Below the pieces are notes generated by a model. That model searched no databases. It had not been told where the DNA came from and worked only from the letters and a program-made list of their open reading frames with translations. Below are positions 18,175 to 45,927 of a stretch of 64,000 bases of DNA, piece by piece. Location of the stretch: positions 1-64,000 of the forward strand of contig NZ_QQBI01000012.1 of the NCBI RefSeq assembly GCF_004302915.1, written 5' to 3'. A program made the position numbers and the translations under genes. Positions within the stretch are counted from its first letter, which is position 1, and every line of letters begins with the position of its first letter. The stretch is from Komagataeibacter xylinus. Its GTDB lineage: Bacteria > Pseudomonadota > Alphaproteobacteria > Acetobacterales > Acetobacteraceae.

Positions 18175-18999
18175 TTATTTATCGATAACCTTGCGCACAC
18201 CTTCCCCCAACAGGTTAAAACCCAGAACCGCAAGCGTGATCGTAAGGCCAGGAAAGAGAGAGGGCAGGATGTCTATGCCCAGATAGCTGCGGCCGTCGCT
18301 CATCATGGCACCCCATTCTGGTGTGGCGGGCGCAACGCCCAGCCCAAGGAAAGACAGGCTCGATGCCGCCAGGATCACCGATCCGGCTGTAAGCGTGGAT
18401 TGCACAAGTATCGGTCCCAGGGCGTTGCGCATGACATGCACGTACAGGATCCGCCATGTTCCAGCCCCCAGCGTGCGGGCGGCTTCCACATATTCCGCGC
18501 GTTGCAGGGCCTGCGTCAGGTTATGCGCCAGACGGACATAAACGGGTATGGAAAATACGGAGATCGCCAGAAGCATGTTGAAAAAACCCGGCCCCAGCAG
18601 GCTCAGGATCAGCAGCGCCAGCACGATACCGGGAAAGGCGAAGATGATATCGACAACCCACATGACCGCCTGCTCCACATATCCCCCCACCAGCGCAGCC
18701 AGCATGCCCGCCAGCGTGCCCATGGCACACGAAACAAGGATGCAGATGCAGACCTCGGCCAGGGAATAGCGCGTGCCATAGACGATCCGGCTGAAAATAT
18801 CACGCCCGAACGCATCCGTGCCGAACGGGTGCGCTGCTGACATGGGCTGAAACGTGGCATACAGATCCTGTGCCAGCGGGTCAGCCGGGCTGATGAGCGG
18901 GGCAAGGAGCGCGCCAAGCACCATAAATGTAATCAGCACCACCCCCGCCAGCAACGAAAGCGGCAGGCGCGCGATCAGGGTGCGAAATGAACCGGTCAT
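18175..18999 (-). CDS. Peptide-type ABC transporter permease, DppC/OppC family
   Basis: This 274-aa inner membrane permease has the family features: an N-terminal TM (LLAGVVLITFMVLGALLAPL), HPFGTDAFGRDIFSRIVYGT, and the cytoplasmic coupling segment EAARTLGAGTWRILYVHVM. I chose ATG 18999 because the upstream in-frame extension lies inside the preceding gene and does not resemble the family. It is the last gene of the minus-strand operon binding protein-DppB-DppC; the two ATPases needed are in the divergent operon at 24.2-26.2 kb. The transporter probably carries peptides, possibly cell-wall peptides given the neighbours. Confidence 0.88.
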   Translation of the reverse strand: MTGSFRTLIARLPLSLLAGVVLITFMVLGALLAPLISPADPLAQDLYATFQPMSAAHPFGTDAFGRDIFSRIVYGTRYSLAEVCICILVSCAMGTLAGMLAALVGGYVEQAVMWVVDIIFAFPGIVLALLILSLLGPGFFNMLLAISVFSIPVYVRLAHNLTQALQRAEYVEAARTLGAGTWRILYVHVMRNALGPILVQSTLTAGSVILAASSLSFLGLGVAPATPEWGAMMSDGRSYLGIDILPSLFPGLTITLAVLGFNLLGEGVRKVIDK

Positions 19000-19012
19000 G
19001 GCAGCTTGTCCT

Positions 19013-19933
19013 TCAGCTATGCCGTGCCTGGGGATCGATCCGGGAAATGACGATGTCGGCCACAAGGTTGACCAGTATGACCGACAGCACCGCAACCAGT
19101 GTCACGCCCTCAATCACGGGATAATCGCGCCAGCGCACGGCCTCGATCATCAGGTGGCCAAGGCCGGGCCAGCCAAAGACCGTCTCGGTCACCACCGCCC
19201 CGCCAATGACACTGCCAAGGTTCATGCCAATCACGGTCACGACCGGGGGCAGGGCATTGGGCAGGGCATGACGCAGGCACAGGCGCATGAGGCCCACACC
19301 CCTGGCGCGGGCGGTGCGGATGTAATCACGTGACAGTACGGCAAGCATGCTGGCACGTGTCATGCGGCCGATCAGGGCCATGGGCATCAGCGCCAGGGTC
19401 AGCGATGGCATGAGCAGGCTGGACCATGAATGCGCGCCCATAAGGGGCAATAACCCAAGGCGGACGGAAAACAGCTCCATCAACAGCAGCGCGAACCAGA
19501 AATTGGGCACCGATGCCAGCACAATCGTCATGCCCATGAAGATCCTGTCCCATATGCCATCCTCGAACATCGCGGCGGCCAGACCACCGGGAATGCCAAA
19601 ACACAGGGCAAGGGCATAGGCGCTCAGCCCCAGCAGCAGCGTATAGGGAAAATGATGGGCAATTTCCTGCCCCACGGGCTGCCGCGATTCAATGGAAATG
19701 CCAAGATCACCAACCAGCGCACCCCGCATGAACGTGCCATATTGCCGCAGGGCCGGGCGGTCGAGCCCAAGGCTGTGATGCACGGCATCAACCGTGTCCT
19801 GCGTTGCGGCGGTTCCGGCCAGCATGCGCGCCGGATCGCCCGGCAGGTGGCGGACCGCGACAAAAACCGCGAACGAGACCACCACCATCACGACCGGCAG
19901 CATCAGCACCCTGTTGATGAGGCGCGCGTTCAT
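19013..19933 (-). CDS. Peptide-type ABC transporter permease, DppB/OppB family
   Basis: This 306-aa permease starts MNARLINRVLMLPVVMVVVS and shows HLPGDPARMLAG, about six membrane segments, and the coupling loop RDYIRTARARGVGLMRLCLR. It overlaps the binding protein gene by four bases and is followed by the DppC-like gene after 13 bp, so the three are one operon. The DppB-type N-terminal periplasmic loop (LGLDRPALRQYGTFMRGAL) is typical. Confidence 0.9.
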   Translation of the reverse strand: MNARLINRVLMLPVVMVVVSFAVFVAVRHLPGDPARMLAGTAATQDTVDAVHHSLGLDRPALRQYGTFMRGALVGDLGISIESRQPVGQEIAHHFPYTLLLGLSAYALALCFGIPGGLAAAMFEDGIWDRIFMGMTIVLASVPNFWFALLLMELFSVRLGLLPLMGAHSWSSLLMPSLTLALMPMALIGRMTRASMLAVLSRDYIRTARARGVGLMRLCLRHALPNALPPVVTVIGMNLGSVIGGAVVTETVFGWPGLGHLMIEAVRWRDYPVIEGVTLVAVLSVILVNLVADIVISRIDPQARHS

Positions 19934-21486
19934 GGATGCGGCTGCCGGTTACGGGTGACATGCGTGATGTCCAGCGCCCCATCCGGCCGCACCACCAGCC
20001 CGGATATGTCCGCACGCATGCCAACCAGCGTATCACGGGTATAGATCAGCACCGCAGGCGCATCGTGCATGATCATCTCCTGTATCTGTGCATAGATGGC
20101 TTTTCGTTTGTCCTCGGATGGTTCCACGGCCCCGGCATTGATCAGCGCATCCACGCCCGGATCATGGAAAAAGCCGAGATTTGCCCCCGCAGGTGCGGCG
20201 GATGCCCCATGGAACAGGGGGCGAAGCTGCATGTCCGGTATGAACCCCGATGACCATGACGCCAGCACGCCATCGAGTTGCAGCGCTGCCTTCTGTGCGG
20301 GATCGGCGAATGCCTCGGATGCATAGACGCCGCCCTCCAGCCGTGAAATCTGCAGGGTGATGCCGGATTTCTTCCACATGTCCTGCAAGGCCTCGGCAAG
20401 GGGTTCGTCCATGTCCTGCACGGCAAGGCTGAACGTGATGCCCGATGGCGATCCGGCTTCGGCCAGCAGGGCGCGCGCACGCTGCGGGTCGTATTGCGGA
20501 TCGGGCGCATAACTGACGAAATAGGGGGAAACCGGCTGCAGCGGGGATCGGGCGGGTTGCCCCCTGTCGCGCAGCAGGGCATGGACCAGTGCCTGCCGGT
20601 CGGTCGCGTAATTCAGCGCCTGCCTGATGCGCCTGTCTGCCCCTGCGTGCCGGTCCATGTTGATGGCGATCCAGTACAGTGGCCCATTGGGGTCATCATG
20701 GATCACGAAGCGTGGATCGCTTTCCATCCGCCGGGCATAAAGCGCTGGCAGGTCACCTACGATATCGGTGTCACCTGTATGCAGCGCCATATCCATGACC
20801 GATGGCTCCGCCGACCATATCCAGCGCACGCTGGCCAGGTCCGGTGGCGTGCCCCAGTAATCCGGGTTGCGCGCCTGCCTGACATATTCCGAGCTTTTCC
20901 ATTCATCAAACCGGAACGGCCCGGTTCCGTCTGCATGCCGCGCCAGGGAGGCGCCCGCATAGGGCGATGTCACGCAGGCCTGGCTGAAGGAAAGCAGCAG
21001 CAGGAAATCAGGGTAGGGGCGGCGCAGGGAAAAACGCACCGTCATGTCATCATCCGTGGTCGTGACCGTATCGACCACGGCCCTGAAGCGGCTGCTGCCC
21101 GCCAATGGGGCGTTCATGTCCAGCAGGCGGCGGAAACTGTGCACGACGCCTGCTGCCGTCATGGTGTGGCCGTCATGGAATTTGACATTGCGGCGCAGGA
21201 CAAAGTCCCACGTCGTGCCCTGCGGGTCATGGCGCCACGAGACCGCCAGCAGGGGATGGATCGTGCGATCCGCATCGGCGCGCACCAGTCCTTCATACAT
21301 CGCGCTCAGGATGGAAGAGGTATCGGTCGCCATCTGGTCCGCGGGGTCCATGCTGCGCGGGGGCTCGGGCTGCATGATGGTCAACGCCCCTGCGGCCCCG
21401 GCGCCTGCATGGGCCGGGGCCGCCATCGCGCCGGTACAGGCGATGAGCGCGGTCAGCAGCACAGGGAGGCGGCAATGGCAGTGCAT
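19930..21486 (-). CDS. Periplasmic substrate-binding protein, family 5 (peptide type)
   Basis: This 518-aa secreted binding protein has a signal peptide (LPVLLTALIACTGAMAAPAHA) and the SBP_bac_5 fold: MQPEPPRSMDPADQMATDTS, SWRHDPQGTTWDFVLRRNVK (the family signature for W.F.LR..V.F.DG), YWIAINMDRHAG, RRIRQALNYATDRQ. Such proteins deliver di- or oligopeptides, and some bind murein tripeptide or anhydro-muropeptides. It is the first gene of the minus-strand operon, facing a ROK regulator. No lipobox is seen, so it should be a free periplasmic protein. Confidence 0.88.
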   Translation of the reverse strand: MHCHCRLPVLLTALIACTGAMAAPAHAGAGAAGALTIMQPEPPRSMDPADQMATDTSSILSAMYEGLVRADADRTIHPLLAVSWRHDPQGTTWDFVLRRNVKFHDGHTMTAAGVVHSFRRLLDMNAPLAGSSRFRAVVDTVTTTDDDMTVRFSLRRPYPDFLLLLSFSQACVTSPYAGASLARHADGTGPFRFDEWKSSEYVRQARNPDYWGTPPDLASVRWIWSAEPSVMDMALHTGDTDIVGDLPALYARRMESDPRFVIHDDPNGPLYWIAINMDRHAGADRRIRQALNYATDRQALVHALLRDRGQPARSPLQPVSPYFVSYAPDPQYDPQRARALLAEAGSPSGITFSLAVQDMDEPLAEALQDMWKKSGITLQISRLEGGVYASEAFADPAQKAALQLDGVLASWSSGFIPDMQLRPLFHGASAAPAGANLGFFHDPGVDALINAGAVEPSEDKRKAIYAQIQEMIMHDAPAVLIYTRDTLVGMRADISGLVVRPDGALDITHVTRNRQPHP

Positions 21487-21606: not shown

Positions 21607-22728
21607 GTGTCCTGCCGGTCGCATGTGCAGTTGCTACGCCTGCTTAACCAGTGCGGTCCCCTCAGCCGCGCGGAACTCATCCGTATGTCCGGGCTGAGCA
21701 AGGGGGCCGTCTCCATGGTGACGGCAGACCTGCTCGCCCACGGCCTGATCGAGACACGCGATACCGTGTATGGCGGCGGACGGCCGTCAATACGGCTGGG
21801 CATTGCCGCCGACAGCGCGTTCTTTGTCGGTATTTCGCTGGCGGACCGTCCGGTCATGGTGCTGGGAGACCTGCACGGCATGATACTGGACCGTTACGAT
21901 ATGGAACTGCCCGACCAGGTGATGGAAATCGGGGCCCATGTGCACCGCCTGATTGCCAGGATCGCACCCGAAGGCTCGCGCCAGGCGCAGCGCCTGCGCG
22001 GCATCGGCCTTGCCGTATCGGGTCTGGTGGATGAACAGGGCGGCATATGCGTGCGCTCCACCCTGACGGGGTGGGAGAATGCGCCGGTCGGCCCGCTGGT
22101 TACGCAGGCCTGCGGGCTGCCAGCCTATGTCGAGAATGACGCTAATGCCCTGACAGTCGCGCAATACAGGTTTGGCCCCATGCGGGAGGCGGCCTCCTTC
22201 AGCCTCATTTCCGTCGGGCAGGGAATCGGGTGCGGGCACATGTTCGGCGGCGAACTGTTTCGCGGGTTTCGCGGTGGCGCGGGGGAGATCGCCCACGCTA
22301 CCGCAGAGCCGGGCGGCCTGCCGTGCCTGTGCGGCAAGACCGGCTGCCTGGATACCGTAGCCTCCATGGCGGCCATCTCCCATCTGGCCACAAGGGCAGG
22401 GCTGCCGGGGGAACTGGAGCCGCTGGAGCAGCTTGCGGCCCAGGGCAACCTTGGCGCGGTCGAGCTGCTGCACCGCGCGGGCAGTGCCCTGGGCCTGATG
22501 ATCGCGCAGATGGTGCAGGTCATGGACCCGCAGCACGTGCTTGTCGTGCGCCAGGGCGGGGGGCTGGAGGGCCTGTTCGCGCGCGCGATGCGGCAGGCGG
22601 CGGAGGGTAACATCCTGCCGCAGCTTGCACCGCGCCCCCAAATCATGACCCACGATGTCACGGCCGATTCATGGGCATTTGGCGCCGCCAGTGTTGCGGC
22701 CGACCGTTCGCTGTTCCGCCAATTCTGA
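21607..22728 (+). CDS. ROK-family transcriptional regulator (NagC/Mlc type)
   Basis: This 373-aa protein has an N-terminal winged helix (LLRLLNQCGPLSRAELIRMS, GLSKGAVSMVTADLLAHGLI) and a C-terminal ROK sugar-kinase-like domain with the zinc motif CLCGKTGCLDT. Regulators of this type respond to amino sugars or their phosphates. The start is a GTG with CGGAGG six bases upstream; no ATG fits. It sits between the divergent permease operon and the M81-OppDF-CutC genes, so it probably controls both. The fold gives no specific ligand. Confidence 0.88.
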   Translation: MSCRSHVQLLRLLNQCGPLSRAELIRMSGLSKGAVSMVTADLLAHGLIETRDTVYGGGRPSIRLGIAADSAFFVGISLADRPVMVLGDLHGMILDRYDMELPDQVMEIGAHVHRLIARIAPEGSRQAQRLRGIGLAVSGLVDEQGGICVRSTLTGWENAPVGPLVTQACGLPAYVENDANALTVAQYRFGPMREAASFSLISVGQGIGCGHMFGGELFRGFRGGAGEIAHATAEPGGLPCLCGKTGCLDTVASMAAISHLATRAGLPGELEPLEQLAAQGNLGAVELLHRAGSALGLMIAQMVQVMDPQHVLVVRQGGGLEGLFARAMRQAAEGNILPQLAPRPQIMTHDVTADSWAFGAASVAADRSLFRQF

Positions 22729-22745: not shown

Positions 22746-24185
22746 ATGCGTATTGCCGTAGGTGGCATTCATATCGAATGCAGTACTTATAATCTGGTGC
22801 CGACCCGGATGGAGGATTTCCGGGTCCTGCGGGGTGAAGCCCTGCTGCAGGCGCCCTATTTTGCGTTCCTGTCCGACTATCTGGCGCAGTTCATCCCGAC
22901 CCTGCATGCCCGCGCCATTCCCGGCGGCCCTGTCACGGCGGAAACCTATCGCGCATTGCGTGATGCGTTCCTTGACCGGCTGCGCGCGGCGGGGCCGCTT
23001 GATGGCGTGTACCTGTCCATGCATGGCGCGATGTATGTGCAGGGCATGGAAGACGCCGAAGGCGACTGGATCTGCGCCACCCGCGCCGTCGTGGGGGAGG
23101 ATGTGCCCATTTCCGTCAGCTATGACCTGCATGGCAACGTGACGCAGCGCATCATCGATGCCATCGACATGTTTTCGACCTATCGCACCGCACCGCATAT
23201 CGATGTGGAGGAAACGATGCGCCGGGCGGTTACGATGCTGGTGCGCTGCCTGACGCAGGGCATACGGCCCCATGTCGTGTGGGCGCCGGTGCCGGTCGTG
23301 CTGCCGGGGGAGAAGACCAGCACCGAGGACGAACCTGCGCGCAGCCTGTATGCCCGCCTGCCGGAAGTGGACCGGCGCGCGGGGATCTGGGATGCCTCGC
23401 TCATGGTGGGGTATGTATGGGCGGACGAGCCGCGCGCGACCGCGGCTGCGGTCATGACGGGAACGGATGCGGCGGCATTGCACGCGGCGGCGGTGGAAAT
23501 GGCCACGGCTTACTGGGAGGCACGCACGCAGTTCCGGTTCGGCTGCTGGACCGGCAGTATCGGACAAACGCTTGAGCGGGCGCTGCAGGCCACGGGCAGG
23601 CCCGTGATCGTTGCGGATTCAGGCGATAATCCGACAGGTGGCGGCGTTGGGGACAGGATCGACGTGCTGCGCGCGCTGATCGAACGTGGCGCACAGGATG
23701 TGATCGTGGCGGGCATCGCCGACCCGCAGGCAACCCGCGCGGCCTGTGCCGCCGGCGTGGGCGCACGCGTCACGCTGCCGGTGGGCGGTGCGCTTGATGC
23801 GGCGGATACGACCCCGATCAGCGTAACGGGAGAGGTCCGGTTCATCCTTGATGATCCGCACGAGCGCGAACGCCAGGCGGTTATCGACGTGGGGGGAATT
23901 CATGTCGTCGTGGCCGCGCGGCGCAGGCCCTACCATAACATTGCCGATTTCACGGTGCTGGGGCTTGATCCGCACCGGGCGCGGATGGTGGTGGTGAAGT
24001 CCGGCTACCTTTCCCCACAGCTCGCCCCGATCGCCAGTCCCGCGCTGATGGCGCTTTCTCCCGGGGCGGTGGACCAGCACGTGACCCGGCTGGCGCGGGT
24101 GCACAAGGCGCGGCCGACCTTTCCGTTCGACACGGCCTTTACATGGTCGCCGCGCGTCTGTCCCTCGGCACGAAAAGGGCGCTGA
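22746..24185 (+). CDS. M81-family metallopeptidase (MlrC-like)
   Basis: This 479-aa protein belongs to the MlrC family, named after the enzyme that degrades linearised microcystin in sphingomonads. Visible motifs are [15 protein letters not shown] at the N-terminus, [22 protein letters not shown], and [11 protein letters not shown], containing the conserved Asp/His residues thought to bind zinc. No signal peptide is present, so it acts in the cytoplasm. It is 17 bp after the ROK regulator and three bases before the ABC ATPase, so it likely processes what the transporter imports. MlrC cuts next to an iso-linked D-Glu; murein stem peptides contain an iso-linked D-Glu too, which suggests (inference) a role on cell-wall peptides. 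Confidence 0.88.
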
Positions 24186-24188: not shown

Positions 24189-25219
<1,031 letters not shown>

Positions 25220-25223
<4 letters not shown>

Positions 25224-26209
25224 GCGCTTTCCCCTTGCTGTCGGTTCGTGACCTGGGCGTGACATTCCATGCGCCACGCACCCTGCTGGGCCGCCGCGCC
25301 AGAAATGTTCAGGCACTGGACAAAATATCGTTCGATATCCATGCGGGCGAGATAGTCGGAATCCTTGGTGAATCCGGCTCCGGCAAGACTACGGTCGGGC
25401 GGTGCATGGTCCGCCTGCAACAGCCTACGACAGGGCATGTCAGTTTTGAGGGACGCGACATTCAGGCCCTGTCAGGGGCGGATCCGGGGTGGTACTGCCG
25501 CCAGGTGCAGATGATTTTCCAGGACCCCGCCGCCAGCCTGAACCCGCGCCTGCGGGTGCGCGACATCGTGGCGGAGGGATTGGATATCCACCGCATCGGC
25601 ACGCGTGAAAGCCGCCGCGAGGCCGTCATCGACCTGCTGGCCTCGGTCGGCCTTGGCGCGGATGCGCTGATGCGGTTCGCGCATGAGTTTTCCGGCGGGC
25701 AGCGCCAGCGCATCGGCATTGCCCGGGCACTGGCGGTTGGTCCACGGCTGATCGTGGCCGATGAGCCCGTCTCGGCGCTGGATGTTTCGGTGCAGGCGAA
25801 AGTCATCAACCTGCTGCGTGGCCTGCGTGAACGGCTGGGCCTGGCGATGGCGTTCATCTCGCACGACCTGCCTGCGGTCATGTTCCTGTGTGACCGTGTT
25901 GTCATCATGTATCTGGGCCGTGTGATGGAAATTGCCCCGACAGGAGCATTCCGTACGCAGCCCTTTCACCCGTATTCACGCACCCTGCTGGCCCTGGCTC
26001 CAGGGCTGCGGCACGGTGGGGAAGGGCGTATTCCCCCAACGCCTGACCATGCCACGGCAGCGCCGGACCTGCACCATGGGTGCGCGTTCCGTAACCGCTG
26101 CCCCCACGCCGTGGCGGCATGCGCCACCGTGGTGCCCCCCTTGCAGCAGGTCACGCCCCAGCGGTGGGTTGCCTGCCTGAGACCGGAGATATTTCATGAC
26201 GCGTGTTGA
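25220..26209 (+). CDS. Peptide-type ABC transporter ATPase, OppF/DppF family
   Basis: This 329-aa partner ATPase shows Walker A GESGSGKTTVGRC, signature FSGGQRQRIGIARAL, Walker B LIVADEPVSALD, and the C-terminal cysteine cluster HGCAFRNRCPHAVAAC. With the OppD-like protein it powers the permeases encoded on the divergent operon at 18.2-19.9 kb. Its end overlaps cutC by 14 bp. Confidence 0.92.
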
Positions 26210-26921
26210 AATCTGCGTGGAAACCCCGCAGGGCATTGCCGCGGCCAATGCGGCCGGGGCTGACCGGATTGAATTGTGCGCCTCGCTTGGCGTCGGGGGG
26301 CTTACGCCGAGTGCCGGGCTGATGCGTTGCGCAGCACGGGGCCATGTGCCGACCCTGGCCATGATCCGCCCCCGTGCCGGGTCGTTCATATTCGACGGCG
26401 ATGAGGCTGCCGTCATGATCGATGACATACATGCCGCACGGGAAGCGGGGCTGAAAGGGGTGGTGCTGGGCGCGATCACGCCCGATGGGCATCTTGATCG
26501 TGATCTCCTGCTGCGCCTGTCCGGTCAGTGCGCGGGCATGGAGCGGACCCTGCACCGCGTGTTCGATCTGGTGCGTGACCCGGCCGAGGCGCTGGAGTTT
26601 GCAATAGAGGCAGGGTTTACCCGCATCCTTACCTCGGGGCAGTGCCCCACCGCGGTGCAGGGGCAGGCATGTCTGGCGCGCCTGAACGCACAGGCGGCGG
26701 GCCGTATTGTCATTCTGGCAGGCAGTGGCGTGAATGCGGGCAATGCTGGTGCGCTGATCCGGGCAACAGGCGTGGGCGAAGTCCATGCCTCCTGCCGGCG
26801 GAGCGTGCAGCTTGCGGCGGATGATGCCGGGTTTGGCTTTGGTCCGATGCCGGGCCTGACCGATCCTGATGCCATCCGTGCCCTTGTGGCAGCCGCACGC
26901 GGGGCGCAGAGTAGGGCATAG
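26196..26921 (+). CDS. cutC: CutC family TIM-barrel protein
   Basis: This 241-aa protein has the CutC hallmarks VEICVETPQGIAAANAAGAD and RIELCASLGVGGLTPSAGLM, then IRPRAGSF. The family was linked to copper tolerance in E. coli, but the biochemical role is unsettled, and it is often found near amino-sugar genes. Here it ends an operon with a ROK regulator, an M81 peptidase and ABC ATPases, and is followed by convergent anmK. This context favours a role in sugar or cell-wall salvage over copper handling (inference). Confidence 0.9.
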   Translation: MTRVEICVETPQGIAAANAAGADRIELCASLGVGGLTPSAGLMRCAARGHVPTLAMIRPRAGSFIFDGDEAAVMIDDIHAAREAGLKGVVLGAITPDGHLDRDLLLRLSGQCAGMERTLHRVFDLVRDPAEALEFAIEAGFTRILTSGQCPTAVQGQACLARLNAQAAGRIVILAGSGVNAGNAGALIRATGVGEVHASCRRSVQLAADDAGFGFGPMPGLTDPDAIRALVAAARGAQSRA

Positions 26922-36734: not shown

Positions 36735-37625
36735 ATGGTAATATTATGTGCGGATGTAGGGGGTTCCTACATCGAGTTTGCGCAATCCGATGCCGGTCAC
36801 AGGCTGACACACCGGCAGCGCGTGCCGACACCAACGCAGGATCTGGATCTTTTTGTTGCCGCACTGGCCAGCCTGGTGGATGGGTATGACCGCGCCATTG
36901 CGCTGCACATTGCCATTGCAGGCGTGTGCGCCCCCGTAACCGGGCGGACGCGCGCGGCCAATATTCCCTGTATTTATGATGTGCCGTTGCGGCAGGTCCT
37001 CATGCAGCGCCTGCAGCGTGATGTGCTGGTCGCCAACGATGCCCACTGTTTTGCCCTCAATGAAGCCATGCAGGGCGTGGGGCAGGGGCACGACATCGTC
37101 TTCGGGGTTATCCTTGGCACAGGGGTGGGGGGTGGCCTGATCGTTCATGGCCGGCCGGTTATCGGGCCGGGCGGCCTTGCGGGAGAGTGGGGGCATGGCC
37201 CCTTCATTACCGACAGTGCCCTGCCCGGTCGCGCCCCCATGCTGCCATGCCAGTGTGGGCAGCAGGGCTGCCTTGATACGATAGGCGGCGCACGTGGCAT
37301 TGAACGGCTGCATACCTTCCTGCATGGGGAGGAACTGGCCATCCGCCCGATCCTGACACATTGGGAAAACGGGGAATCCCGGGCCATCGAGACCGTAAAC
37401 ATATGGCTTGACCGGATGTCCGCCGGGCTGGCCATGGTGGTCAATGTAACCGGGGCTTCCATCATGCCCGTGGGGGGCGGGCTGGCCCATCAGGCCAGGC
37501 TGCTGCACGCACTGGATGAGAAAGTGCGCAGCCGGATCCTGCGACAGGATACCGCAGCGCTGGTCGTGCCGGGGGCCCTGCCGGCAGAGTCCGGGCTTGC
37601 AGGGGCTTCGTGGTTGAAATCGTAA
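36735..37625 (+). CDS. ROK-family sugar kinase, probably N-acetylglucosamine kinase
   Basis: This 296-aa protein lacks a DNA-binding domain and starts directly with the phosphate-binding motif CADVGGSYIEFA. It has GVILGTGVGGGLIVHGRPV, GLAGEWGHGPF (catalytic and sugar-binding His/Glu region), and the zinc motif CQCGQQGCLDTIGG. NagK-type ROK kinases convert GlcNAc to GlcNAc-6-P, which fits the downstream NagA and NagB. Length matches NagK. Specificity for GlcNAc over ManNAc or glucose is inferred from context. Confidence 0.8.
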   Translation: MVILCADVGGSYIEFAQSDAGHRLTHRQRVPTPTQDLDLFVAALASLVDGYDRAIALHIAIAGVCAPVTGRTRAANIPCIYDVPLRQVLMQRLQRDVLVANDAHCFALNEAMQGVGQGHDIVFGVILGTGVGGGLIVHGRPVIGPGGLAGEWGHGPFITDSALPGRAPMLPCQCGQQGCLDTIGGARGIERLHTFLHGEELAIRPILTHWENGESRAIETVNIWLDRMSAGLAMVVNVTGASIMPVGGGLAHQARLLHALDEKVRSRILRQDTAALVVPGALPAESGLAGASWLKS

Positions 37626-37991: not shown

Positions 37992-40433
37992 ATGCTCATG
38001 AAGGTTTCGTACCGTAATCTATCCCTCTGTTGTACTATCTGGGCGAGTCTGGTGATCGTTCCCGCGTATGGACAGGTTTCAGCCGCGACGCGTAACGGGT
38101 CCGTCAATACTTCATCGGCAAAGGCCCGTGCAAAACCCCCGGCGAATGCCGCACAGACAAAAACAGCGCCCCTGCCCACACCCAAAGTTGAACATATCAC
38201 CGTAAGCCGGCATCTTCCGCCCACGGCCAATGGCGTGACCAATCTGACACCGGGTGGCGGCCTGATGCCGCCCCAGACCGCGCCACGCTCACAAAGTGGC
38301 CTGACGCGTGACTTTATTGCAAAACAGGCGCCTACGGCCAATATCGCCGCCCTCGTGGCGGACCTGCCGGGTGTGAATTTTTCCAGCCAGGACCCGTTTG
38401 GCCTGACGGGAAACAACATGACCATGCGCGGCATGACACAGGCCCAGATCGGGTATCTGTTCGAAGGGGCGCCAATGGCTGACCCCATCAATTACCAGCC
38501 CTATAGCAGCATGATGGTTGATTCGGAAAACCTGGGATCGGTTACCGTTTCACAGGGATCACCTGACCTTGACGCCCCGCTGTACAATGCGGTGGGTGGC
38601 CAGATTACAGCGACCGAGATCAACCCATCGCATAAACAGCGCGGATTTGTAGACCTGGCAGGCGGCACGCATAGTGGCAACAAGGAATTCATCCGTTATG
38701 AAACTGGGGATATCGGTAATACAGGTATCCGGGGCTTTGTTTCATTTTCCCACACCAGCTATAACAACTGGCGCGGACCAGGTGGACTGTTCCGTTACCA
38801 TGTCGATTCAAAATTTGTAAAGGAATGGGGGGATGGCAACAGCATTTCCGCCGTATTCTCCTTTAACCGGCAGCAGCAGACCTCCTGGAGATCACCGACC
38901 CTCAGCCAGTGGAACAAATATGGTGACAGCTTCAATTATGCAGGATCATTCACCCAGGGCGACCCGACATATTACGGGCTGCAGATTACGAACATGAATG
39001 CCGAGACGGTTATCCTGCCGTCCCATTTTACATTGACCAAAAACCTGAAGCTACATGTCACCCCTTACTTTGAACATCAGTTTGGCCCGTCCAACGCAGG
39101 GGAGAGCATTCCCACAACCGGCGGCTATATGGGCACCCAGCGCTATGGCAGCCTGGTCGGCATACCGACAGGAAACGGATCGGTCCTGACCGAGGGCGTG
39201 GATCCGTGGGACCAGAAAAGCGGCTCGCTTAACATGTCCCTCGACTGGACAAGAGGCCATAACAAACTGTCGGTCGGGTATTGGTACAATTATACGTCCC
39301 ATCAGGAACTTTCCACATTCCGGCAGGTTTACGCCAATGGCTCGTATTCCAACAGCCCCATTATCGATGCCACGAACGGGCGGATCCTGACGGGCTATGA
39401 CCTGAACTTCAAGCAGCAGGTCAATACGCTTTTCATCGCCGATACCCTGAACCTGCTGCACGACAGGTTGACCCTGAGCGCGGGCTTCCGGGCTGCAATG
39501 GTCAGCCGCACGGGCACGAACAACGTGCCGGGAGCCGACCCCTACTACAAGGCGGGCAATTACTTTGAGCCCCTGCCGCAGTTTGCCGCCAGTTTCAAGA
39601 TCACGCCGCATGACCAGATCTTTGTCAACGGCACGACCGCCTTCCGTGCCCCGGCTTCGGTGGAGGCTTACAGCCAGATATTTGACCCCAATAATTCACA
39701 TGCAGTCGAACAGCCCGGGTCGCTCAAGCCTGAATATTCCATTGGCGAGGAAATCGGCTTTCGTCATTCCGGCTTTCTCAACGTGGCGGTGTCCCTGTTC
39801 AACCTGAACATGACCAACCACCAGGTAACATCCATGAACTACATTCCGGGCACGACGCAGCTGATTTCCGAACCCATCAATATTGGTGGGCAGACATCAC
39901 GCGGCATCCAGGCTGAAATCGGCCTGCGGCGCTGGCATCATATCAGCCCGTATTTCTCCGGTCAGTACCTGCATGCAACAATGGATAACAACTACAATGC
40001 CGGTGGCGGAAACTACCTGCCAACCGCAGGAAAGATTGCTGTTGAATCGCCCAAATTCACCGGTGCGATAGGTCTGAATTATGATGATGGCCGTTTCTTC
40101 GGCAACTTTGCGCTGAGGTATGTTGACTCCCAGTACACGACATTCATGGATGACGAGAAAATTCCCTCCTACATCACCTCGGACATCACGCTGGGCTATC
40201 GCATGAAGAAGCTTGGCCCGGCAAAGGCGCCGCAGATACAGTTGAACATCATGAATATTGGCGATAACCATTATCTCTCAGGTGGTTCCAGCTTTACCAG
40301 CAACGCCCATCCGGTCAACACCGTTGCGGGTGGCCTGTACAGAAGCAGCACGGGTGGTGCGAGCACGTCGGCGCCCATCTATCTGGTCGGGGGCGCATTC
40401 GCTGCCATGGTTTCGGTATCGGCAGGGTTCTGA
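37992..40433 (+). CDS. TonB-dependent outer membrane receptor
   Basis: This 813-aa receptor has a signal peptide ending near AYG-Q, a Pro/Ala-rich linker, a possible TonB box (VEHITVSRH), a plug domain (about residues 95-220: ANIAALVADLPGVNFSSQDP, NNMTMRGMTQAQIGYLFEG), and a beta barrel ending in the outer-membrane signature SVSAGF with terminal Phe. It imports ligands too large for porins. Followed by an FucP/NagP-type permease and nag genes, it most likely takes up chitooligosaccharides or muropeptides, as in the chitin-use loci of Xanthomonas and Shewanella; direct evidence for the ligand is absent. Confidence 0.9.
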   Translation: MLMKVSYRNLSLCCTIWASLVIVPAYGQVSAATRNGSVNTSSAKARAKPPANAAQTKTAPLPTPKVEHITVSRHLPPTANGVTNLTPGGGLMPPQTAPRSQSGLTRDFIAKQAPTANIAALVADLPGVNFSSQDPFGLTGNNMTMRGMTQAQIGYLFEGAPMADPINYQPYSSMMVDSENLGSVTVSQGSPDLDAPLYNAVGGQITATEINPSHKQRGFVDLAGGTHSGNKEFIRYETGDIGNTGIRGFVSFSHTSYNNWRGPGGLFRYHVDSKFVKEWGDGNSISAVFSFNRQQQTSWRSPTLSQWNKYGDSFNYAGSFTQGDPTYYGLQITNMNAETVILPSHFTLTKNLKLHVTPYFEHQFGPSNAGESIPTTGGYMGTQRYGSLVGIPTGNGSVLTEGVDPWDQKSGSLNMSLDWTRGHNKLSVGYWYNYTSHQELSTFRQVYANGSYSNSPIIDATNGRILTGYDLNFKQQVNTLFIADTLNLLHDRLTLSAGFRAAMVSRTGTNNVPGADPYYKAGNYFEPLPQFAASFKITPHDQIFVNGTTAFRAPASVEAYSQIFDPNNSHAVEQPGSLKPEYSIGEEIGFRHSGFLNVAVSLFNLNMTNHQVTSMNYIPGTTQLISEPINIGGQTSRGIQAEIGLRRWHHISPYFSGQYLHATMDNNYNAGGGNYLPTAGKIAVESPKFTGAIGLNYDDGRFFGNFALRYVDSQYTTFMDDEKIPSYITSDITLGYRMKKLGPAKAPQIQLNIMNIGDNHYLSGGSSFTSNAHPVNTVAGGLYRSSTGGASTSAPIYLVGGAFAAMVSVSAGF

Positions 40434-40490: not shown

Positions 40491-41798
40491 TTGCCCAGGT
40501 TATACCCACAAAGCCCTGCGGGACAGTATGGCTGGCGGCCCATCGTTATCATCGCCTGCCTGTTTTTCATTATCGGTTTTGTGACATGGCTCAATGGTCC
40601 CCTTATCACGTTTGTGCAGGTCGCCTTCAACCTGAGTACCGTCAGCGCCTTTCTCGTGCCGATGTGCTTTTATCTGTCCTACCTGTTTTTCCCTCTGCCC
40701 GCCACGCTGCTGACCCGATTGACCGGCCTGAAAGGGGGGCTGGTTGTTGCCCTGGTCGTTCTTTCGGCCGGTGTCGCCATTTTTGGCGAATGTGTCAGCA
40801 TACGCGTGTATCCCGGTGCGCTGAGCGGGCTGTTTGTCATGGGGGCGGGGCTGTCGTTACTGCAGATCACCATAAACCCATATGTAACGCTGCTGGGACC
40901 GACGGAAAAAGCGGCCCAGCGCATTGCCATCATGGGTGTGGCCAACAAGATTGCGGGGATCGCGGCCCCTGTTGTCCTTGCGCTGCTGGTCATGCGCAAT
41001 CTTGGCGATATTGCAGGCCAGGTCAGGGCCGCACCGGATATGGCGGCACGCAACCATATCCTGGATCAGTTCGCCCATGCCGTGCAGATCCCGTATTTCG
41101 TCATGGCGGCCGTGCTGCTGGCCCTGGCAATCGGGCTGGCGCGTTCGTCCCTCCCGCATATCGATATTGCCGGCTCATCCCGCCCCGATGCGCCGGTGGC
41201 CAGGACATCGCGCCTGTCCCGGTCATTCCGTCTGGGCTTCGGGGTGCTGTGCATGTTCGTTTATGTCGGCACCGAAGTCATGGCGGGGGACGCCATTGGC
41301 GTATATGGCAGCAGCCTTGGCATTCCGCTTGACCAGACCAAGTTCTTCACCTCCCTGACCCTGACGGCGATGATGGGCGGATATGTGCTGGGCATGCTGC
41401 TGGTGCCGCGTGTCTTTTCACAGGAGCGCTATCTGGGCCTGTCAGCGGTGGCTGGCGTCATGTTATGCGTGCTGAGCTGGCTGACACATGGCTATGCCTC
41501 GGTGCTGTGCGTGGCGCTGTGCGGTTTTGCAAATGCCATGATCTTACCCTCCCTGTTCCCCATTGTTATTTCCGATGTGGAAGATCGGGGCGCACAGGCG
41601 ACCGCCTTGCTGGTCATGGCGTTTTCAGGCGGCTCGGTCATTCCGCAGATCTTTGTCCAGATCGCACCCTTCACAGGCGTGCAGGCAGCCTTCGTGGGGC
41701 TGGCGGTTCCGTCCTATCTGTTGATCATTTTCTATAACATCCTCATGCAGCGCCATAATCGGGCGCGTGCTGTTCCGGTCATGATGGTCGAGTCATGA
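40491..41798 (+). CDS. FucP/NagP-type MFS sugar permease
   Basis: This 435-aa, 12-helix permease begins its first helix at WRPIVIIACLFFIIGFVTWLN, and has LNGPLITFVQVAFNLS and MGAGLSLLQITINPYV, typical of the FucP/GluP/NagP group of H+-coupled sugar importers. The start is TTG 40491, chosen because GAGGAGGGG lies just before it and no ATG is near the first helix. It is 57 bp after the TonB receptor gene and overlaps the next gene by four bases. Given nagA and nagB downstream, GlcNAc is the likely cargo. Confidence 0.88.
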   Translation: MPRLYPQSPAGQYGWRPIVIIACLFFIIGFVTWLNGPLITFVQVAFNLSTVSAFLVPMCFYLSYLFFPLPATLLTRLTGLKGGLVVALVVLSAGVAIFGECVSIRVYPGALSGLFVMGAGLSLLQITINPYVTLLGPTEKAAQRIAIMGVANKIAGIAAPVVLALLVMRNLGDIAGQVRAAPDMAARNHILDQFAHAVQIPYFVMAAVLLALAIGLARSSLPHIDIAGSSRPDAPVARTSRLSRSFRLGFGVLCMFVYVGTEVMAGDAIGVYGSSLGIPLDQTKFFTSLTLTAMMGGYVLGMLLVPRVFSQERYLGLSAVAGVMLCVLSWLTHGYASVLCVALCGFANAMILPSLFPIVISDVEDRGAQATALLVMAFSGGSVIPQIFVQIAPFTGVQAAFVGLAVPSYLLIIFYNILMQRHNRARAVPVMMVES

Positions 41799-42991
41799 AA
41801 CCCTATCGCGGGTTGTATATTTATCCGTGGGATATTGTGGACCACGATGATCTGGCCAGCTTCGCGGTGCGCATAGGTGAGATGGGCATCAATACGTTAT
41901 GCGTTGCGGCAACGTACCATGCCGGGAAATTCCTGCGCCCCCATGGCTTGCGCCAGAAAGTCTTTTTCCCGCAGGATGGTGCCACATATCTTCCCATCCA
42001 GCCATGGAGGGGCAGCATCAGCCCCATCATCGCAACGCAGGGACTGGGCATGGAGGCACTGCAGGTGCTGCACGCGCAGGGCCTGCAGGTCGCGGCATGG
42101 ACGGTCCTGCTGCACAATACCGCGCTGGGTACGCAGTATCCGCAATTCACCTGCCATAACGCGTTTGGCGATCGCTACCCCTACAGCCTGTGCCCCTCCC
42201 ACGCAGCCGTGCGGGAATATGGTGTCAACTTGTGCCGGGAAATGGGGGCCAACCCCTATGTCAGCCAGATCATATGCGAAACGCCGGGCTGGCAGCCATT
42301 CAGGCATGGCTTTCACCATGAAATGAGTTTTCTTGCGCCCAATATGTGGGCCGATACCCTGATGGGACTATGCTTCTGCGGTGCCTGCATGTCACGGGCG
42401 GCGGAAGACCGGGTCAATGTTACGGCAGTGCGGCAGCGTGTGGCGGCATGCCTGTCGCGCTACATGGACCGCCCTGATGATGCCCCGCCCGCCGATGGCG
42501 CCGGGCGGCTGATGCAGATGCTTGTCTGTGATGATGACCTGCGCGACTTCCTGCGCTGGCGCTGCCGGCAGGTTACGTCCTTTGTGGCGCAGATACGCGC
42601 GGCGGTCCGTGAGCAGGTAGGGGTGTATGTCATCCCGTCCGTGATGGAAAATCCGGTTCTGTCATGGGTCGAAGGAAGCGACCTCAATGCCCTGTCGCAG
42701 GCCTGCGATGGGCTGGAAGTCTGCCTGTATGGCGGCGATACGCGCGCAGCCGTGTCCCGGCTGGCGGATATTCGCGACATTACTGGCAATCAAGGCAGGG
42801 TCCGCACCGTTTTGCGACCTGCCTCAGGTGATTTTGATAACGGAGCGGCCTTTGTAGCCCATGCCCGGACCCTGGCGCGCTGCGGCGTGGACGGGTTCGG
42901 TTTTTATAATTTTGGTCATTTGCGCAGGGAAAACCTGCACTGGATCGATCAGGCGGCGCACGCCGTGCAGGCGCAGGTATTGCCGCTGTGA
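41795..42991 (+). CDS. Unrecognised protein in the nag operon, probable barrel fold with CxxC
   Basis: I do not recognise this 398-aa cytoplasmic protein with confidence. It has no signal peptide. N-terminal GLYIYPWDIVDHDD and the regular beta-alpha spacing (INTLCVAATYHAGK, GLQVAAWTVLLHNT, SQIICETPGWQP) suggest a TIM barrel; a cysteine-rich segment LCFCGACMSRA sits at about residues 190-200, as in some glycosidase-like barrels. Several His/Glu/Asp residues near strand ends could be catalytic. It overlaps the permease by four bases (ATGA) and precedes nagB by 19 bp, so it is translated with the GlcNAc genes. A role as a cytoplasmic glycosidase, deacetylase or epimerase for amino sugars is possible but unproven. 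Confidence 0.6.
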   Translation: MKPYRGLYIYPWDIVDHDDLASFAVRIGEMGINTLCVAATYHAGKFLRPHGLRQKVFFPQDGATYLPIQPWRGSISPIIATQGLGMEALQVLHAQGLQVAAWTVLLHNTALGTQYPQFTCHNAFGDRYPYSLCPSHAAVREYGVNLCREMGANPYVSQIICETPGWQPFRHGFHHEMSFLAPNMWADTLMGLCFCGACMSRAAEDRVNVTAVRQRVAACLSRYMDRPDDAPPADGAGRLMQMLVCDDDLRDFLRWRCRQVTSFVAQIRAAVREQVGVYVIPSVMENPVLSWVEGSDLNALSQACDGLEVCLYGGDTRAAVSRLADIRDITGNQGRVRTVLRPASGDFDNGAAFVAHARTLARCGVDGFGFYNFGHLRRENLHWIDQAAHAVQAQVLPL

Positions 42992-43010
42992 ATACTGGAT
43001 GGAGACTATC

Positions 43011-43802
43011 ATGAAAATTGTCATTTGCCCCGATCGTGAACAGGCGACATTGCTGACGGCCCGGGTCATGGAAGATGCCATTCGCCAGCAGCCAGATATC
43101 ACACTCGGCCTTGCCACCGGCCGCACGATGGAAAGGGTCTATGCTGCCCTCGTGCAGGCACATCGCGACAGGGGGCTGGATTTTTCACATTGCCGGACAT
43201 TCAATCTGGATGAATATGTCGGCATATCCGCCTCATCCGCGCAGTCTTACCGCACCTATATGAATACGCACCTGTTTTCACGGGTGAACATCGCGCTATC
43301 CGCCACGCATGTGCCCGATGGCATGGCAACGGACCTGGCGGCACGGTGCATCGACTATGAAAAGGCCCTGCACGCCTGCGGTGGCGTGGGGCTCCAGCTG
43401 CTGGGAGTGGGGGAAAACGGCCATATCGGCTTTAACGAACCGTTTTCCGCGTTCACGTCACGCACCCGTGTCGTAACGCTGGACCCCGCCACACGCGAAC
43501 AGAACCGGGGCATGTTCGATGATAACCTCGATCATGTGCCCTATCATGCCGTGACAATGGGGGTGGGCACCATTCTTGATGCCAGGCGCATCGTGGTCCT
43601 TGCAACCGGAGCGGCCAAGGCCAGTGTCCTGGCCAATATGATCGAAGGCCCGCTTACCGCCAGCATCAGTGCAACAGCCCTGCAGATGCATGCCAGCTGC
43701 CTGGTCATCATTGATGAAGCCGCGGCCGCTTCACTCTCCCGGCGGCCTTTTATCAACCATCTGATGCAACACGATGCCGAACTGCAGGGCCTTCTGTCCT
43801 GA
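43011..43802 (+). CDS. nagB: Glucosamine-6-phosphate deaminase
   Basis: NagB converts GlcN-6-P to fructose-6-P and ammonia. The 263-aa protein matches the family end to end: TGRTMERVYAAL, FNLDEYVG, GVGENGHIGFNEP, and ATGAAKASVLANMIEGP. ATG 43011 gives the conserved MKIVICPDREQ start. It lies 19 bp after the unrecognised gene and 51 bp before the BadF kinase gene. Confidence 0.95.
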   Translation: MKIVICPDREQATLLTARVMEDAIRQQPDITLGLATGRTMERVYAALVQAHRDRGLDFSHCRTFNLDEYVGISASSAQSYRTYMNTHLFSRVNIALSATHVPDGMATDLAARCIDYEKALHACGGVGLQLLGVGENGHIGFNEPFSAFTSRTRVVTLDPATREQNRGMFDDNLDHVPYHAVTMGVGTILDARRIVVLATGAAKASVLANMIEGPLTASISATALQMHASCLVIIDEAAAASLSRRPFINHLMQHDAELQGLLS

Positions 43803-43853: not shown

Positions 43854-44807
43854 ATGGATGACGCAGTTCTGGCTGTTGACGGTGGGGGCACGCGCACGCG
43901 CGCCGTTATTGTCGGGTCTGACGGGCATGTGCTCGAACATCGCCTTTCCGGTGGCAGCAACGCCTATGACAAGGCTGATTGGGCGGAGACCCTGACGGGC
44001 CTGCTGCAGGGACTGGACAGATACCGCCTGCTCGCGGCAACCATAGGCCTTGCGGGTTATTGTGCCGAGCGCCCCTCATCGCACATGCAGGAAAAGGTCA
44101 TCCTTGACGCCCTCGGGCCGGATGTGCGCATAGGCATGTGTTCAGACGTGGAAATTGCCTGTGTCGGCGCCTTTCTGGGTGGGCCGGGCATCCTTGCGCT
44201 TGCGGGCACGGGGTCGGTCATATGGGCGGATGATCACCGCCATGCGCCGTTACGGATCGGCGGGTGGGGATACATGCTCGGTGATGAAGGCAGTGGCTAC
44301 TGGATTGGCTGCATGGCCATGCGCAGGGTCGTGCGGTATATTGATACGCGCCATGCGCCTGATGCCGATTTCGCCACGCGGCTGCTGCAGGCGCTGGACC
44401 TGCCGGCCAACCCGGACCGGGCGGGCGAGGCGTTGCTGGAATGGCAGAGGGTGCAGCCCCACCCACGCTCCGCCATTGCCGCCCTGGCCCATGTGCTGGA
44501 CCGGCTGGCCAATGAGGGCAGTGCCGATGCCCGCTCCATTCTTGTCGAGGCGGCGCAATGCCTGGCCACGCAGGTCCGGGTGGCACGCGACCGCCTGCAG
44601 GTGGCTCTGCCGTGGAGTTATGGGGGAAGCGTATTCCGCAGCCGGTTTGTCATGGAGCAGATGACGGAGCTTCTTGGTGAACAGCCGCATATTCCACAAC
44701 TGCCACCCATTGGCGGCGGGGTCATACGGGCCGCCGCGCGTGCGGGCTGGCACATGGATGCGGCATGGCTGGAACGGCTGGACGCCGATCTGGCGCACAA
44801 ATACTGA
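43854..44807 (+). CDS. BadF/BcrA-family kinase, GlcNAc/MurNAc kinase-like
   Basis: This 317-aa kinase of the BadF/BadG/BcrA ATPase family has an N-terminal phosphate motif LAVDGGGTRTRAVIV, GGSNAYD, LAGTGSVIW, and GGWGYMLGDEGSGYWIG, a signature of N-acetylhexosamine kinases such as human NAGK and clostridial MurK (which phosphorylates both GlcNAc and MurNAc). ATG 43854 follows a TTG that is unlikely to start. Since a ROK kinase that could make GlcNAc-6-P is encoded at 36.7 kb, this one may serve MurNAc, GlcN or ManNAc. Located between nagB and nagA. Confidence 0.82.
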   Translation: MDDAVLAVDGGGTRTRAVIVGSDGHVLEHRLSGGSNAYDKADWAETLTGLLQGLDRYRLLAATIGLAGYCAERPSSHMQEKVILDALGPDVRIGMCSDVEIACVGAFLGGPGILALAGTGSVIWADDHRHAPLRIGGWGYMLGDEGSGYWIGCMAMRRVVRYIDTRHAPDADFATRLLQALDLPANPDRAGEALLEWQRVQPHPRSAIAALAHVLDRLANEGSADARSILVEAAQCLATQVRVARDRLQVALPWSYGGSVFRSRFVMEQMTELLGEQPHIPQLPPIGGGVIRAAARAGWHMDAAWLERLDADLAHKY

Positions 44808-44823
44808 AAGCGGAAAAAAGACC

Positions 44824-45927
44824 ATGAACATCAGTGGACAGCTGGTCTGTGCCGATCAGATCCTGCCCGGCACGATGTCCTTTGACACGTTGATCGGGGA
44901 TATATCGGCGCGGCCTGACGCCCCGCAGCGCTATATCCTGCCCGGTTTTATCGACGGGCATGTCCATGGAGGCGACGGGGCGGATACCATGGACGGGGCC
45001 GATGCGATCCGCCGCATGTCCCGCTTCCATCTCTCCCACGGCACCACGACCATCCTGCCCACCACCATCACACGGCCCTGGTCCGATGTGATGGATGCCT
45101 TGCGGGCCGTGGCGGAAGTGCGGCATACGGGCAACCCCAACGGCCCGTGCATCCATGGGGCGCATCTGGAAGGGCCCTTTGTCAGCCCGCATCGTCTTGG
45201 CGCGCAGCCGCCTTTTGCAATCGCGCCGGACCCGGAGCATGTCACACAGGCCCTGTCGCTCGATATCGTGCGTGTCGTAACGCTCGCCCCTGAACTGGCG
45301 CATGCGGGTACCGCCATCGACGCCTTTGCCAGGGCCGGGGTCCGGGTCAGCCTGGGGCATAGCGTGACGGATTATGAGGGCGCGCGGCAGGCCATCTGCC
45401 GCATCTGCACCGCAGGCGGGGTAACGGGTGCCACGCATCTGTTCAATGCGATGAACCCCATAGAAGGCCGCCGCCCCGGGCCGGTGACCGCCCTGATGTG
45501 TAGTGACGTCACCTATGCCGAAATGATTTACGACACGCATCATGTCCATCCCGCCTCCTTCCATCTGGCACGGCGGATGATGGGCTCGAGGCTGCTGTTC
45601 GTAACCGACGCCATGCGGGGAACCGGCATGGGTGAGGGCGAGAGCCAGCTCGGTGGCCAGAGGGTCCATATTGCCAACGGCACGGCCCGGCTGGAGGATG
45701 GCACGCTGGCGGGCAGTATCCTCACGCTTGATGTCGCGCTGCGCAACGCGGTGCAGGCAGGCATATCATTGCCCGAAGCCGCCCGCCTGGTCAGCGGGAA
45801 TGCAGCACGCTACCTTGGCCTGCCAGACCGGGGGGAACTCACGGTCGGGCGACGGGCCGATTTTGTCGTTCTGGACCCGAACCTGCATGTCGAGGAAGTC
45901 TGGGTTGCGGGGCAGCGCCTGCATTGA
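44824..45927 (+). CDS. nagA: N-acetylglucosamine-6-phosphate deacetylase
   Basis: NagA removes acetate from GlcNAc-6-P. The 367-aa amidohydrolase shows the metal-binding HVHGGDGADTMD, HLEGPFVSP, GHSVTDYEGA, GATHLFNAMNP, and the catalytic Asp in FVTDAMRGTGM. It starts 16 bp after the kinase gene and ends the operon TonB receptor-permease-unknown-nagB-kinase-nagA. It also handles the GlcNAc-6-P produced by MurQ, linking the two halves of the island. Confidence 0.94.
   Translation: MNISGQLVCADQILPGTMSFDTLIGDISARPDAPQRYILPGFIDGHVHGGDGADTMDGADAIRRMSRFHLSHGTTTILPTTITRPWSDVMDALRAVAEVRHTGNPNGPCIHGAHLEGPFVSPHRLGAQPPFAIAPDPEHVTQALSLDIVRVVTLAPELAHAGTAIDAFARAGVRVSLGHSVTDYEGARQAICRICTAGGVTGATHLFNAMNPIEGRRPGPVTALMCSDVTYAEMIYDTHHVHPASFHLARRMMGSRLLFVTDAMRGTGMGEGESQLGGQRVHIANGTARLEDGTLAGSILTLDVALRNAVQAGISLPEAARLVSGNAARYLGLPDRGELTVGRRADFVVLDPNLHVEEVWVAGQRLH

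Follow-up and report, generated by a model that had tools for sequence, protein, structure and literature searches.

Is a run of genes that reaches from a peptide-type transporter through cell-wall sugar salvage to the catabolism of N-acetylglucosamine (GlcNAc) a single system, or have several systems come to lie side by side? The question is raised by positions 18175..45927 of a 64,000-nucleotide stretch of Komagataeibacter xylinus DNA (the window; positions 1 to 64,000 of NZ_QQBI01000012.1, a contig of 78,847 bases in an assembly of 3.63 Mb and 101 contigs). A first-pass annotation, made from the letters alone, took these 28 kb to be one system that imports whole cell-wall fragments and uses both their sugar and their stem peptide. 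On balance, and without great confidence, we favor a different reading, in which three separately moving amino-sugar modules make up the 28 kb: a core for N-acetylmuramic acid (MurNAc), which includes a sodium/solute-type (SSS) symporter as the proposed importer of MurNAc or its anhydro form (anhMurNAc); a GlcNAc module; and a module made up of a Dpp-type transporter, an M81 protein and CutC, whose substrate is more likely to be an amino-sugar compound than a free peptide.

Gene order in the island and in its relatives

Gene families were called by Pfam and NCBIfam profile searches and by PDB sequence matches, with curated cut-offs applied. The limits of the island fit its genes: DppC has its lowest position at 18175, and NagA ends at 45927. 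From left to right the order is DppCBA on the minus strand, ROK1-M81-DppD-DppF-CutC on the plus strand, AnmK-GntR/UTRA-MurQ-PBP4B-like on the minus strand, SSS-GH20 on the plus strand, ROK2 on the minus strand, and ROK kinase-TonB receptor-NagP-unknown-NagB-BadF kinase-NagA on the plus strand. Profile matches bear out the families that the annotation had named (the Dpp set, M81, CutC, AnmK, GntR, MurQ, the PBP4B-like protein, GH20, the TonB receptor, the NagP-like permease, NagB, a kinase and NagA), but it had overlooked the SSS symporter, a 398-amino-acid protein, and the ROK kinase, which it did not list as a kinase. Nor do ROK and GntR regulators stand at each junction, as it had them: ROK1 lies inside the Dpp block, the GntR/UTRA regulator inside the MurNAc block and ROK2 inside the GlcNAc block, so that each block has its own regulator. 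The adjacency of the three gene sets is consistent with a single system; the three regulators count against it, and a simple palindrome scan of the intergenic regions revealed no operator shared across the blocks.

We compared the island with a sample of 200 Acetobacteraceae genomes, referred to by G numbers. Among the genomes examined, all three modules adjoin in the source genome only. In G135, which belongs to the same genus, AnmK-GntR-MurQ-PBP4B-SSS is 88-95% identical to the window and is followed directly after SSS by an MscS gene and one DUF72 gene, which in the window lie beyond NagA; the GlcNAc and Dpp blocks were not found in the 40 kb fetched, nor M81 in the genome. Two other members of the genus (G060, G184) have no match to SSS, MurQ or M81, absence being set at E values of 1e-60, 1e-40 and 1e-60, respectively. 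Two Novacetimonas genomes (G189, G142) have the order GH20-ROK2-ROK kinase-TonB-NagP-unknown-NagB-BadF-NagA-GH20-GntR-MurQ-PBP4B-SSS, with the Dpp block on a different contig; G030 has GH20-NagB-NagP-TonB-ROK2-ROK kinase-CutC-SSS-MurQ; and G169 has SSS-MurQ-BadF kinase-GH20 in a row. Counting the window, MurNAc and GlcNAc genes are neighbors in 5 of the 24 genomes with SSS, from three genera, although in G169 the GlcNAc side consists of GH20 and the BadF kinase only. In three further genera (G025, G037, G048), NagP and a ROK kinase border the Dpp/M81/CutC block on one side and GH20 and a TonB receptor on the other, with NagB also bordering it in G025 and G037; MurQ is far from this block or on another contig.

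Because gene orders and neighbors differ among these genomes, we conclude that the modules recombine. The 28 kb is not conserved as one physical unit in the relatives examined, and its blocks lie apart even in close ones, but the proposed joining of a sugar branch to a MurNAc branch, able to converge on GlcNAc-6-phosphate, NagA and NagB, is supported by the recurrence of these genes as neighbors. A shared GlcNAc-6-phosphate trunk is supported as well by genomes without SSS, since MurQ lies near NagA in 13 of the 20 such loci fetched.

A symporter in genomes without AmpG and NagZ

The SSS gene (31277..32740, plus strand; PF00474 above the cut-off, TIGR00813 at 174 bits, narrowly under 184) was found at E<=1e-60 in 24 of the 200 family genomes, and in 20 of them it is no more than about 3 kb from MurQ, AnmK or PBP4B. 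It has no such neighbors in G022 and G117, and the neighborhoods in G009 and G163 were not judged because their contigs are short. MurQ occurs in 86 genomes. AmpG, scored by TIGR00901 at E<=1e-5 with control matches that include E. coli and Caulobacter, occurs in 153, of which 150 were counted as strong; the weak matches (G040, G046, G169) were scored as absent. Among the genomes with MurQ, SSS is present in 1 of the 59 with a strong AmpG (G026) and in 22 of the 27 without, figures that become 2 of 60 and 21 of 26 if the weak matches are scored as present. NagZ (NF003740) was looked for in a hand-picked set of 80 genomes out of the 200, all 24 with SSS and 56 others, sub-cut-off matches in frames of about 1000 amino acids (G060, G184) being scored as without NagZ. 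Among those of the 80 in which neither AmpG nor NagZ was found, SSS is present in 22 of 22 genomes with MurQ and in 0 of 8 without it, and the five AmpG-less MurQ genomes that lack SSS (G004, G089, G103, G164, G193) all have NagZ.

Several observations weigh against taking this pattern at face value. Fisher tests of it give extreme values, but they ignore kinship, and since the losses of AmpG and NagZ fall largely in one clade, the p-values overstate the association. On a MurQ tree covering the 42 of the 86 MurQ genomes whose DNA had been fetched, 19 SSS genomes fall within a single supported clade, G117/G123 and G026 being placed outside it, and the SSS label needs only four changes, at least three of them forced. 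G026 carries SSS together with both AmpG and NagZ. G163, which is 73% complete and is the only SSS genome without a MurQ match, has SSS and AmpG but lacks a NagZ match. SSS and MurQ are widely separated, or lie on separate contigs, in 7 of the 23 genomes that carry the two genes (G009, G022, G025, G037, G079, G117, G123). A fair reading is that there were few independent events and that SSS and MurQ have mostly been kept together. A class-wide alignment search for SSS at 1e-100 returned the source genome only (1 of 385); with a limit harsher than the 1e-60 of the family search, and few family members drawn, this result bounds close relatives only.

As a separate observation, AmpG is without a match at E<=1e-5 in 47 of the 200 family genomes (G013, G029 and G032 among them), 21 of which have no MurQ or SSS match either. 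Some genomes of the family that have none of the three may lack muropeptide sugar recycling of this kind.

The best PDB sequence match of the symporter is 5nv9, a structure of SiaT, which couples sialic acid uptake to Na+. The published account of SiaT, in the portion bearing on the binding site, gives residue numbers that fit the 5nv9 chain and has Ser60 and Thr63 binding the sugar carboxylate, Phe78 lying in the N-acetyl pocket and Gln82 binding the glycerol tail (PMC5931594). Across 16 SSS relatives, the positions aligned to Ser60, Thr63 and Phe78 are kept in every sequence and Gly81 in 15, and Gln82 is kept in none; of the four residues used as a test for the SiaT type (Ser60, Thr63, Gln82, Arg135), the first two are kept and the last two are not. 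It tells against our assignment that 6 of the 10 SiaT substrate positions compared are not kept (Thr58, Gln82, Arg135, Phe243, Asn247, Gln250), Thr58 being replaced by Glu, Phe243 by Gly, Asn247 by Ser, Thr or Ala, and Gln250 by Ser. Arg135 aligns with Ala (15 of 16) or Gly (1 of 16), with invariant Arg127 and Arg134 nearby, and at this level of identity the alignment could be in error. The residue pattern could suit an N-acetylated acidic sugar that has no glycerol tail, for example MurNAc or anhMurNAc, and from its neighborhood and co-occurrence we propose the symporter as a candidate (anh)MurNAc importer that stands in place of AmpG.

The source genome has no AmpG match (TIGR00901, E<=1e-5) and no NagZ match (NF003740, E<=1e-10), and the known cytoplasmic disassembly of anhydromuropeptides is therefore unlikely; its sole GH3 match lies in a 770-amino-acid frame that is BglX-like by inspection. 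We suspect instead that muropeptides are broken down in the periplasm, where the GH20 beta-N-acetylhexosaminidase (32936..35173, plus strand; PF00728, 306 bits) would remove GlcNAc, and the PBP4B/YfeW-like serine hydrolase (29808..30992, minus strand; PF00144, with the equivalog NF002968 missed at 137 bits against 385), or another amidase, would remove the stem peptide. By eye, the N-terminus is signal-peptide-like in the former and lipoprotein-like in the latter. The symporter would then import MurNAc and/or anhMurNAc. The BadF/MurK-like amino-sugar kinase (43854..44807, plus strand; PF01869) would phosphorylate MurNAc, AnmK (26961..28085, minus strand; PF03702, and NF007141 passed at 466.5 bits against 352) would phosphorylate anhMurNAc, and MurQ (28839..29768, minus strand; NF003915 passed at 342 bits against 168, the equivalog TIGR00274 missed at 273 against 302) would turn MurNAc-6-phosphate into GlcNAc-6-phosphate. 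The hydrolase, the symporter, AnmK and MurQ, with the GntR/UTRA regulator (28082..28837, minus strand; PF07702, PF00392), make up the first module, the MurNAc core. Both sugars could be used, because the BadF kinase matches the MurNAc/GlcNAc kinase 8zo3 (E 1.4e-18, second to hexokinase 2e2n; NF046058 at 84 bits against 370) and its relative adjoins MurQ in G169. A point on the other side is that the best PDB sequence match of GH20 is 6yhh, a chitobiase, so that GH20 may act on chitin only.

In the second module, the TonB-dependent receptor (37992..40433, plus strand; PF00593, PF07715) and GH20 would take up and cleave GlcNAc oligosaccharides. The NagP-like MFS permease (40491..41798, plus strand), which misses the equivalog NF046060 at 256 bits against 625 and passes TIGR01272, a glucose/galactose MFS subfamily, at 262 against 202.55, would import GlcNAc, and the GlcNAc-kinase-like ROK sugar kinase (36735..37625, plus strand; PF00480, with NF009835 missed at 188 bits against 380) would phosphorylate it. 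The ROK2 regulator (35411..36637, minus strand) matches NCBIfam models under their cut-offs. All three modules should feed one cytoplasmic trunk of GlcNAc-6-phosphate, the deacetylase NagA (44824..45927, plus strand; TIGR00221 passed at 245 bits against 225.65) and the GlcN-6-phosphate deaminase NagB (43011..43802, plus strand; TIGR00502 passed at 252 bits against 236.9). For NagB, NagA, the BadF kinase and the GntR/UTRA regulator, we set the start inside a longer frame (42861-43802 for NagB, 44674-45927 for NagA, 28082-28903 for the regulator). The substrates, the localization and the order of these steps we infer from the families, neighborhoods and co-occurrence described above.

The Dpp-type transporter, M81 and CutC

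The third module has the permeases, ATPases and family-5 binding protein of a Dpp/Opp transporter, the best NCBIfam matches all being under their cut-offs. On the minus strand are the DppC-like permease (18175..19095; best match 250.5 bits), the DppB-like permease (19013..19933; Opp2B, 303 bits against 350) and the solute-binding protein (19930..21486; PF00496), whose N-terminus is signal-peptide-like by eye. On the plus strand follow the NagC/Mlc-like ROK1 regulator (21607..22728; NCBIfam, under the cut-off), the M81/MlrC-like metalloenzyme (22746..24185; PF07364, PF07171; PDB sequence matches 7ylq and 3iuu), the DppD-like ATPase (24189..25223; 340.7 bits against 541), the DppF-like ATPase (25220..26209; 292.3 against 408) and a CutC family protein (26196..26921; PF03932 above the cut-off at 225 bits, NF008603 missed at 160 against 311). 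In an alignment of seven M81 sequences, H9, E11, D127, H129 and H151 are invariant.

M81 occurs in 11 of the 200 family genomes, the source genome included. Of the ten others, three have it in the GlcNAc setting described above (G025, G037, G048), three Novacetimonas genomes have it with Dpp genes and CutC and with no GlcNAc enzymes seen at the locus, and two (G042, G154) have it without recognized partners. In the remaining two (G004, L078:8428-10574; G165, L079:3-2143, at a contig end), M81 and CutC form a pair with no recognized Dpp or GlcNAc genes nearby, an arrangement that suggests a shared reaction.

Outside the family we rely on the best 80 of 423 named M81 loci. A cassette of the form ROK kinase-DppCBA / ROK-M81, often with CutC or DppDF, is found in Neorhizobium, Brucella endophytica, Pseudochrobactrum, Pantoea, Enterobacter ludwigii and Brenneria, CutC not being seen in the Pantoea and Enterobacter copies. 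DppA and M81 are divergent at 30 of the 80 loci, and these 30 include the ROK kinase in 21, CutC in 19 and DppD next to M81 in 15. The rhizobial and Pantoea cassette has the same gene order as the third module at about 42-68% identity; it differs in that its ROK kinase is usually inside, whereas that of the window sits in the GlcNAc block. No description of its substrate was found in the portions of the literature consulted. No peptidase gene adjoins M81 in the annotated Pantoea soli cassette, though its gene table may not be complete. In both S. meliloti and Qingshengfaniella a GH20 gene precedes M81, and a second M81 and an ABC transporter of the sugar type lie nearby. The S. meliloti transporter is possibly Smb21216/Smb21219-Smb21221. 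Genes with these tags appear as a predicted galactosamine transporter in the relevant part of one report (PMC4961836). As a side observation, one locus of the Pseudochrobactrum type (L176) comes from a record titled Bacillus subtilis SK6B4, which is probably mislabelled or contaminated.

In E. coli DppA and OppA an aspartate (D436 and D445, respectively) binds the amino group of the peptide. This Asp is absent from the binding protein of the window and from three relatives. We set the peptide branch aside as the leading reading after considering the neighborhoods in the ten other family genomes and at the 80 loci. The module more likely transports an amino-sugar compound, perhaps a chitooligosaccharide or a glycoconjugate, than free peptides. 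Much can be said in opposition. E. coli GsiB also lacks Asp in this column; most solved relatives of the binding protein are known to bind heme, nickel, glutathione or peptide; and the matches listed (60 of the 73 solved relatives) include none named as a chitobiose-binding protein. The divergent cassette is missing from 50 of the 80 M81 loci, and at 36 of the 80 a further Dpp-type set, with a DppA about 24-27% identical, lies downstream (the cassette is also present at 6 of the 36). Next to M81, a gamma-glutamyltransferase is encoded on one Rhizobium plasmid and an M15 metallopeptidase, on the opposite strand, in Qingshengfaniella. The linkage of M81 and CutC to amino-sugar genes in unrelated bacteria provides a functional lead for two poorly understood families.

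Rival readings and known systems

That independent nutrient operons landed together, with no functional coupling, would account for the presence of all three blocks in one genome only, for a G135 locus without both outer blocks, and for the separate regulators. We consider this unlikely, given that MurNAc genes adjoin GlcNAc genes in varied orders in three genera, that the Dpp block adjoins GlcNAc genes in three more, and that MurQ so often adjoins NagA where SSS is missing. The system of the first-pass annotation, importing whole wall fragments with the Dpp-type transporter and M81 as its peptide branch, we judge more doubtful still. The three gene sets do stand side by side in the window, the relatives of the binding protein include peptide binders (murein-peptide binders among them), and M81 is a named metallopeptidase family. 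The stem-peptide branch is weakly supported, but with M81 relatives beside a gamma-glutamyltransferase, an M15 peptidase or a second Dpp-type set, a peptide-like substrate is still conceivable. Against it stand the ties of the cassette elsewhere to ROK kinase, CutC, GH20 and NagP, away from MurQ, the missing Asp of the binding protein, and three blocks with three regulators, no common operator found, and separate locations in relatives.

The symporter itself invites another explanation, namely that its solute is a different one (GlcNAc, sialic acid or MurQ-released D-lactate, for instance) and that this explains its pairing with MurQ. The SSS family is broad, with matches that also include carriers of monocarboxylates, vitamins, iodide and glucose, and most of the SiaT substrate positions are not kept. 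Such a role nonetheless seems improbable to us, as the island already has a NagP-like permease, the pairing of SSS with MurQ follows the loss of AmpG and NagZ, and Gln82, the glycerol-tail residue for sialic acid, is absent from all 16 relatives. With modules for MurNAc and GlcNAc that share a trunk, the island functions as if a MurNAc operon had been coupled to one for chitin and GlcNAc.

Parts of this arrangement have counterparts in well-studied bacteria. As in murR/murQ-murP-yfeW of E. coli, MurQ (40% identity) is encoded with a MurNAc transporter, for which the symporter is the candidate here, and with a PBP4B-like protein (30% identity to YfeW). The E. coli operon has MurR and the phosphotransferase system (PTS) transporter MurP, whereas the window has the SSS symporter, a GntR/UTRA regulator and AnmK in the cluster; and the source genome, unlike E. 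coli and the classical Gram-negative recycling through AmpG and NagZ, shows no match to either protein. AmiE of Bacillus subtilis is probably kin to the PBP4B-like proteins. Its gene and that of NagZ lie downstream of murQRP, and the two enzymes break muropeptides down outside the cytoplasm, according to the sections consulted of one study (PMC5061867). The extracytoplasmic breakdown that we propose for the window would be analogous to the murQRP-amiE-nagZ-ybbC system, with a different importer and with GH20 presumably replacing NagZ. Tannerella forsythia murTKQ, in the excerpts available, likewise combines dedicated MurNAc import, a kinase and MurQ (PMC7670621, PMC10465942, PMC5388701), and G169 has SSS-MurQ-BadF kinase; T. 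forsythia keeps AmpG, however, and those excerpts give it no predicted AnmK; the comparison of MurT with SSS is one of gene arrangement. Caulobacter, as partial texts describe it (PMC13046382, PMC11980594), has alphaproteobacterial GlcNAc clusters with a TonB receptor, NagA and NagB, and has AnmK; it differs in having AmpG and NagZ, no MurQ, a PTS permease and the MurU route.

It is conceivable, though we hold the idea only tentatively, that a lineage of acetic acid bacteria lost AmpG and NagZ and recycles or scavenges wall sugar by periplasmic disassembly and an SSS (anh)MurNAc symporter, with M81 and CutC as unrecognized parts of amino-sugar metabolism. We know of no published case in which the AmpG gateway is replaced by a sodium/solute-type symporter, and the literature matches listed, as far as their text goes, contain no description of MurQ/AmpG-type recycling in acetic acid bacteria. 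Since AmpG is treated as the gateway of Gram-negative cell-wall recycling, genomes that have neither AmpG nor NagZ and keep MurQ, in our sample always with SSS, present a testable case of replacement.

The 398-amino-acid protein between NagP and NagB (41795..42991, plus strand) is TIM-barrel-like by eye only and has no match in Pfam (E up to 10), NCBIfam (E up to 0.001) or PDB sequences (E up to 1). Homologues occur in 4 of 289 genomes from the class and 6 of 398 from the phylum, the source genome counted, and in G142 and G189; they are scattered over the Alphaproteobacteria and one genome of another class. Outside the window, their neighbors include a Gfo/Idh/MocA oxidoreductase, an SDR protein and beta-lactamase-fold hydrolases. 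Trp, His, Asp, Glu and Cys positions are invariant in six sequences, and the product may be an undescribed sugar-active enzyme.

Left of the island, a stretch of about 1.5 kb (16618-18174) that separates the Dpp block from a two-component system is of lower G+C (0.54 for 16001-18000) and has no open reading frame of at least 150 amino acids wholly inside. To the right of NagA, 46324-49230 carries an MscS-type channel and two DUF72 genes.

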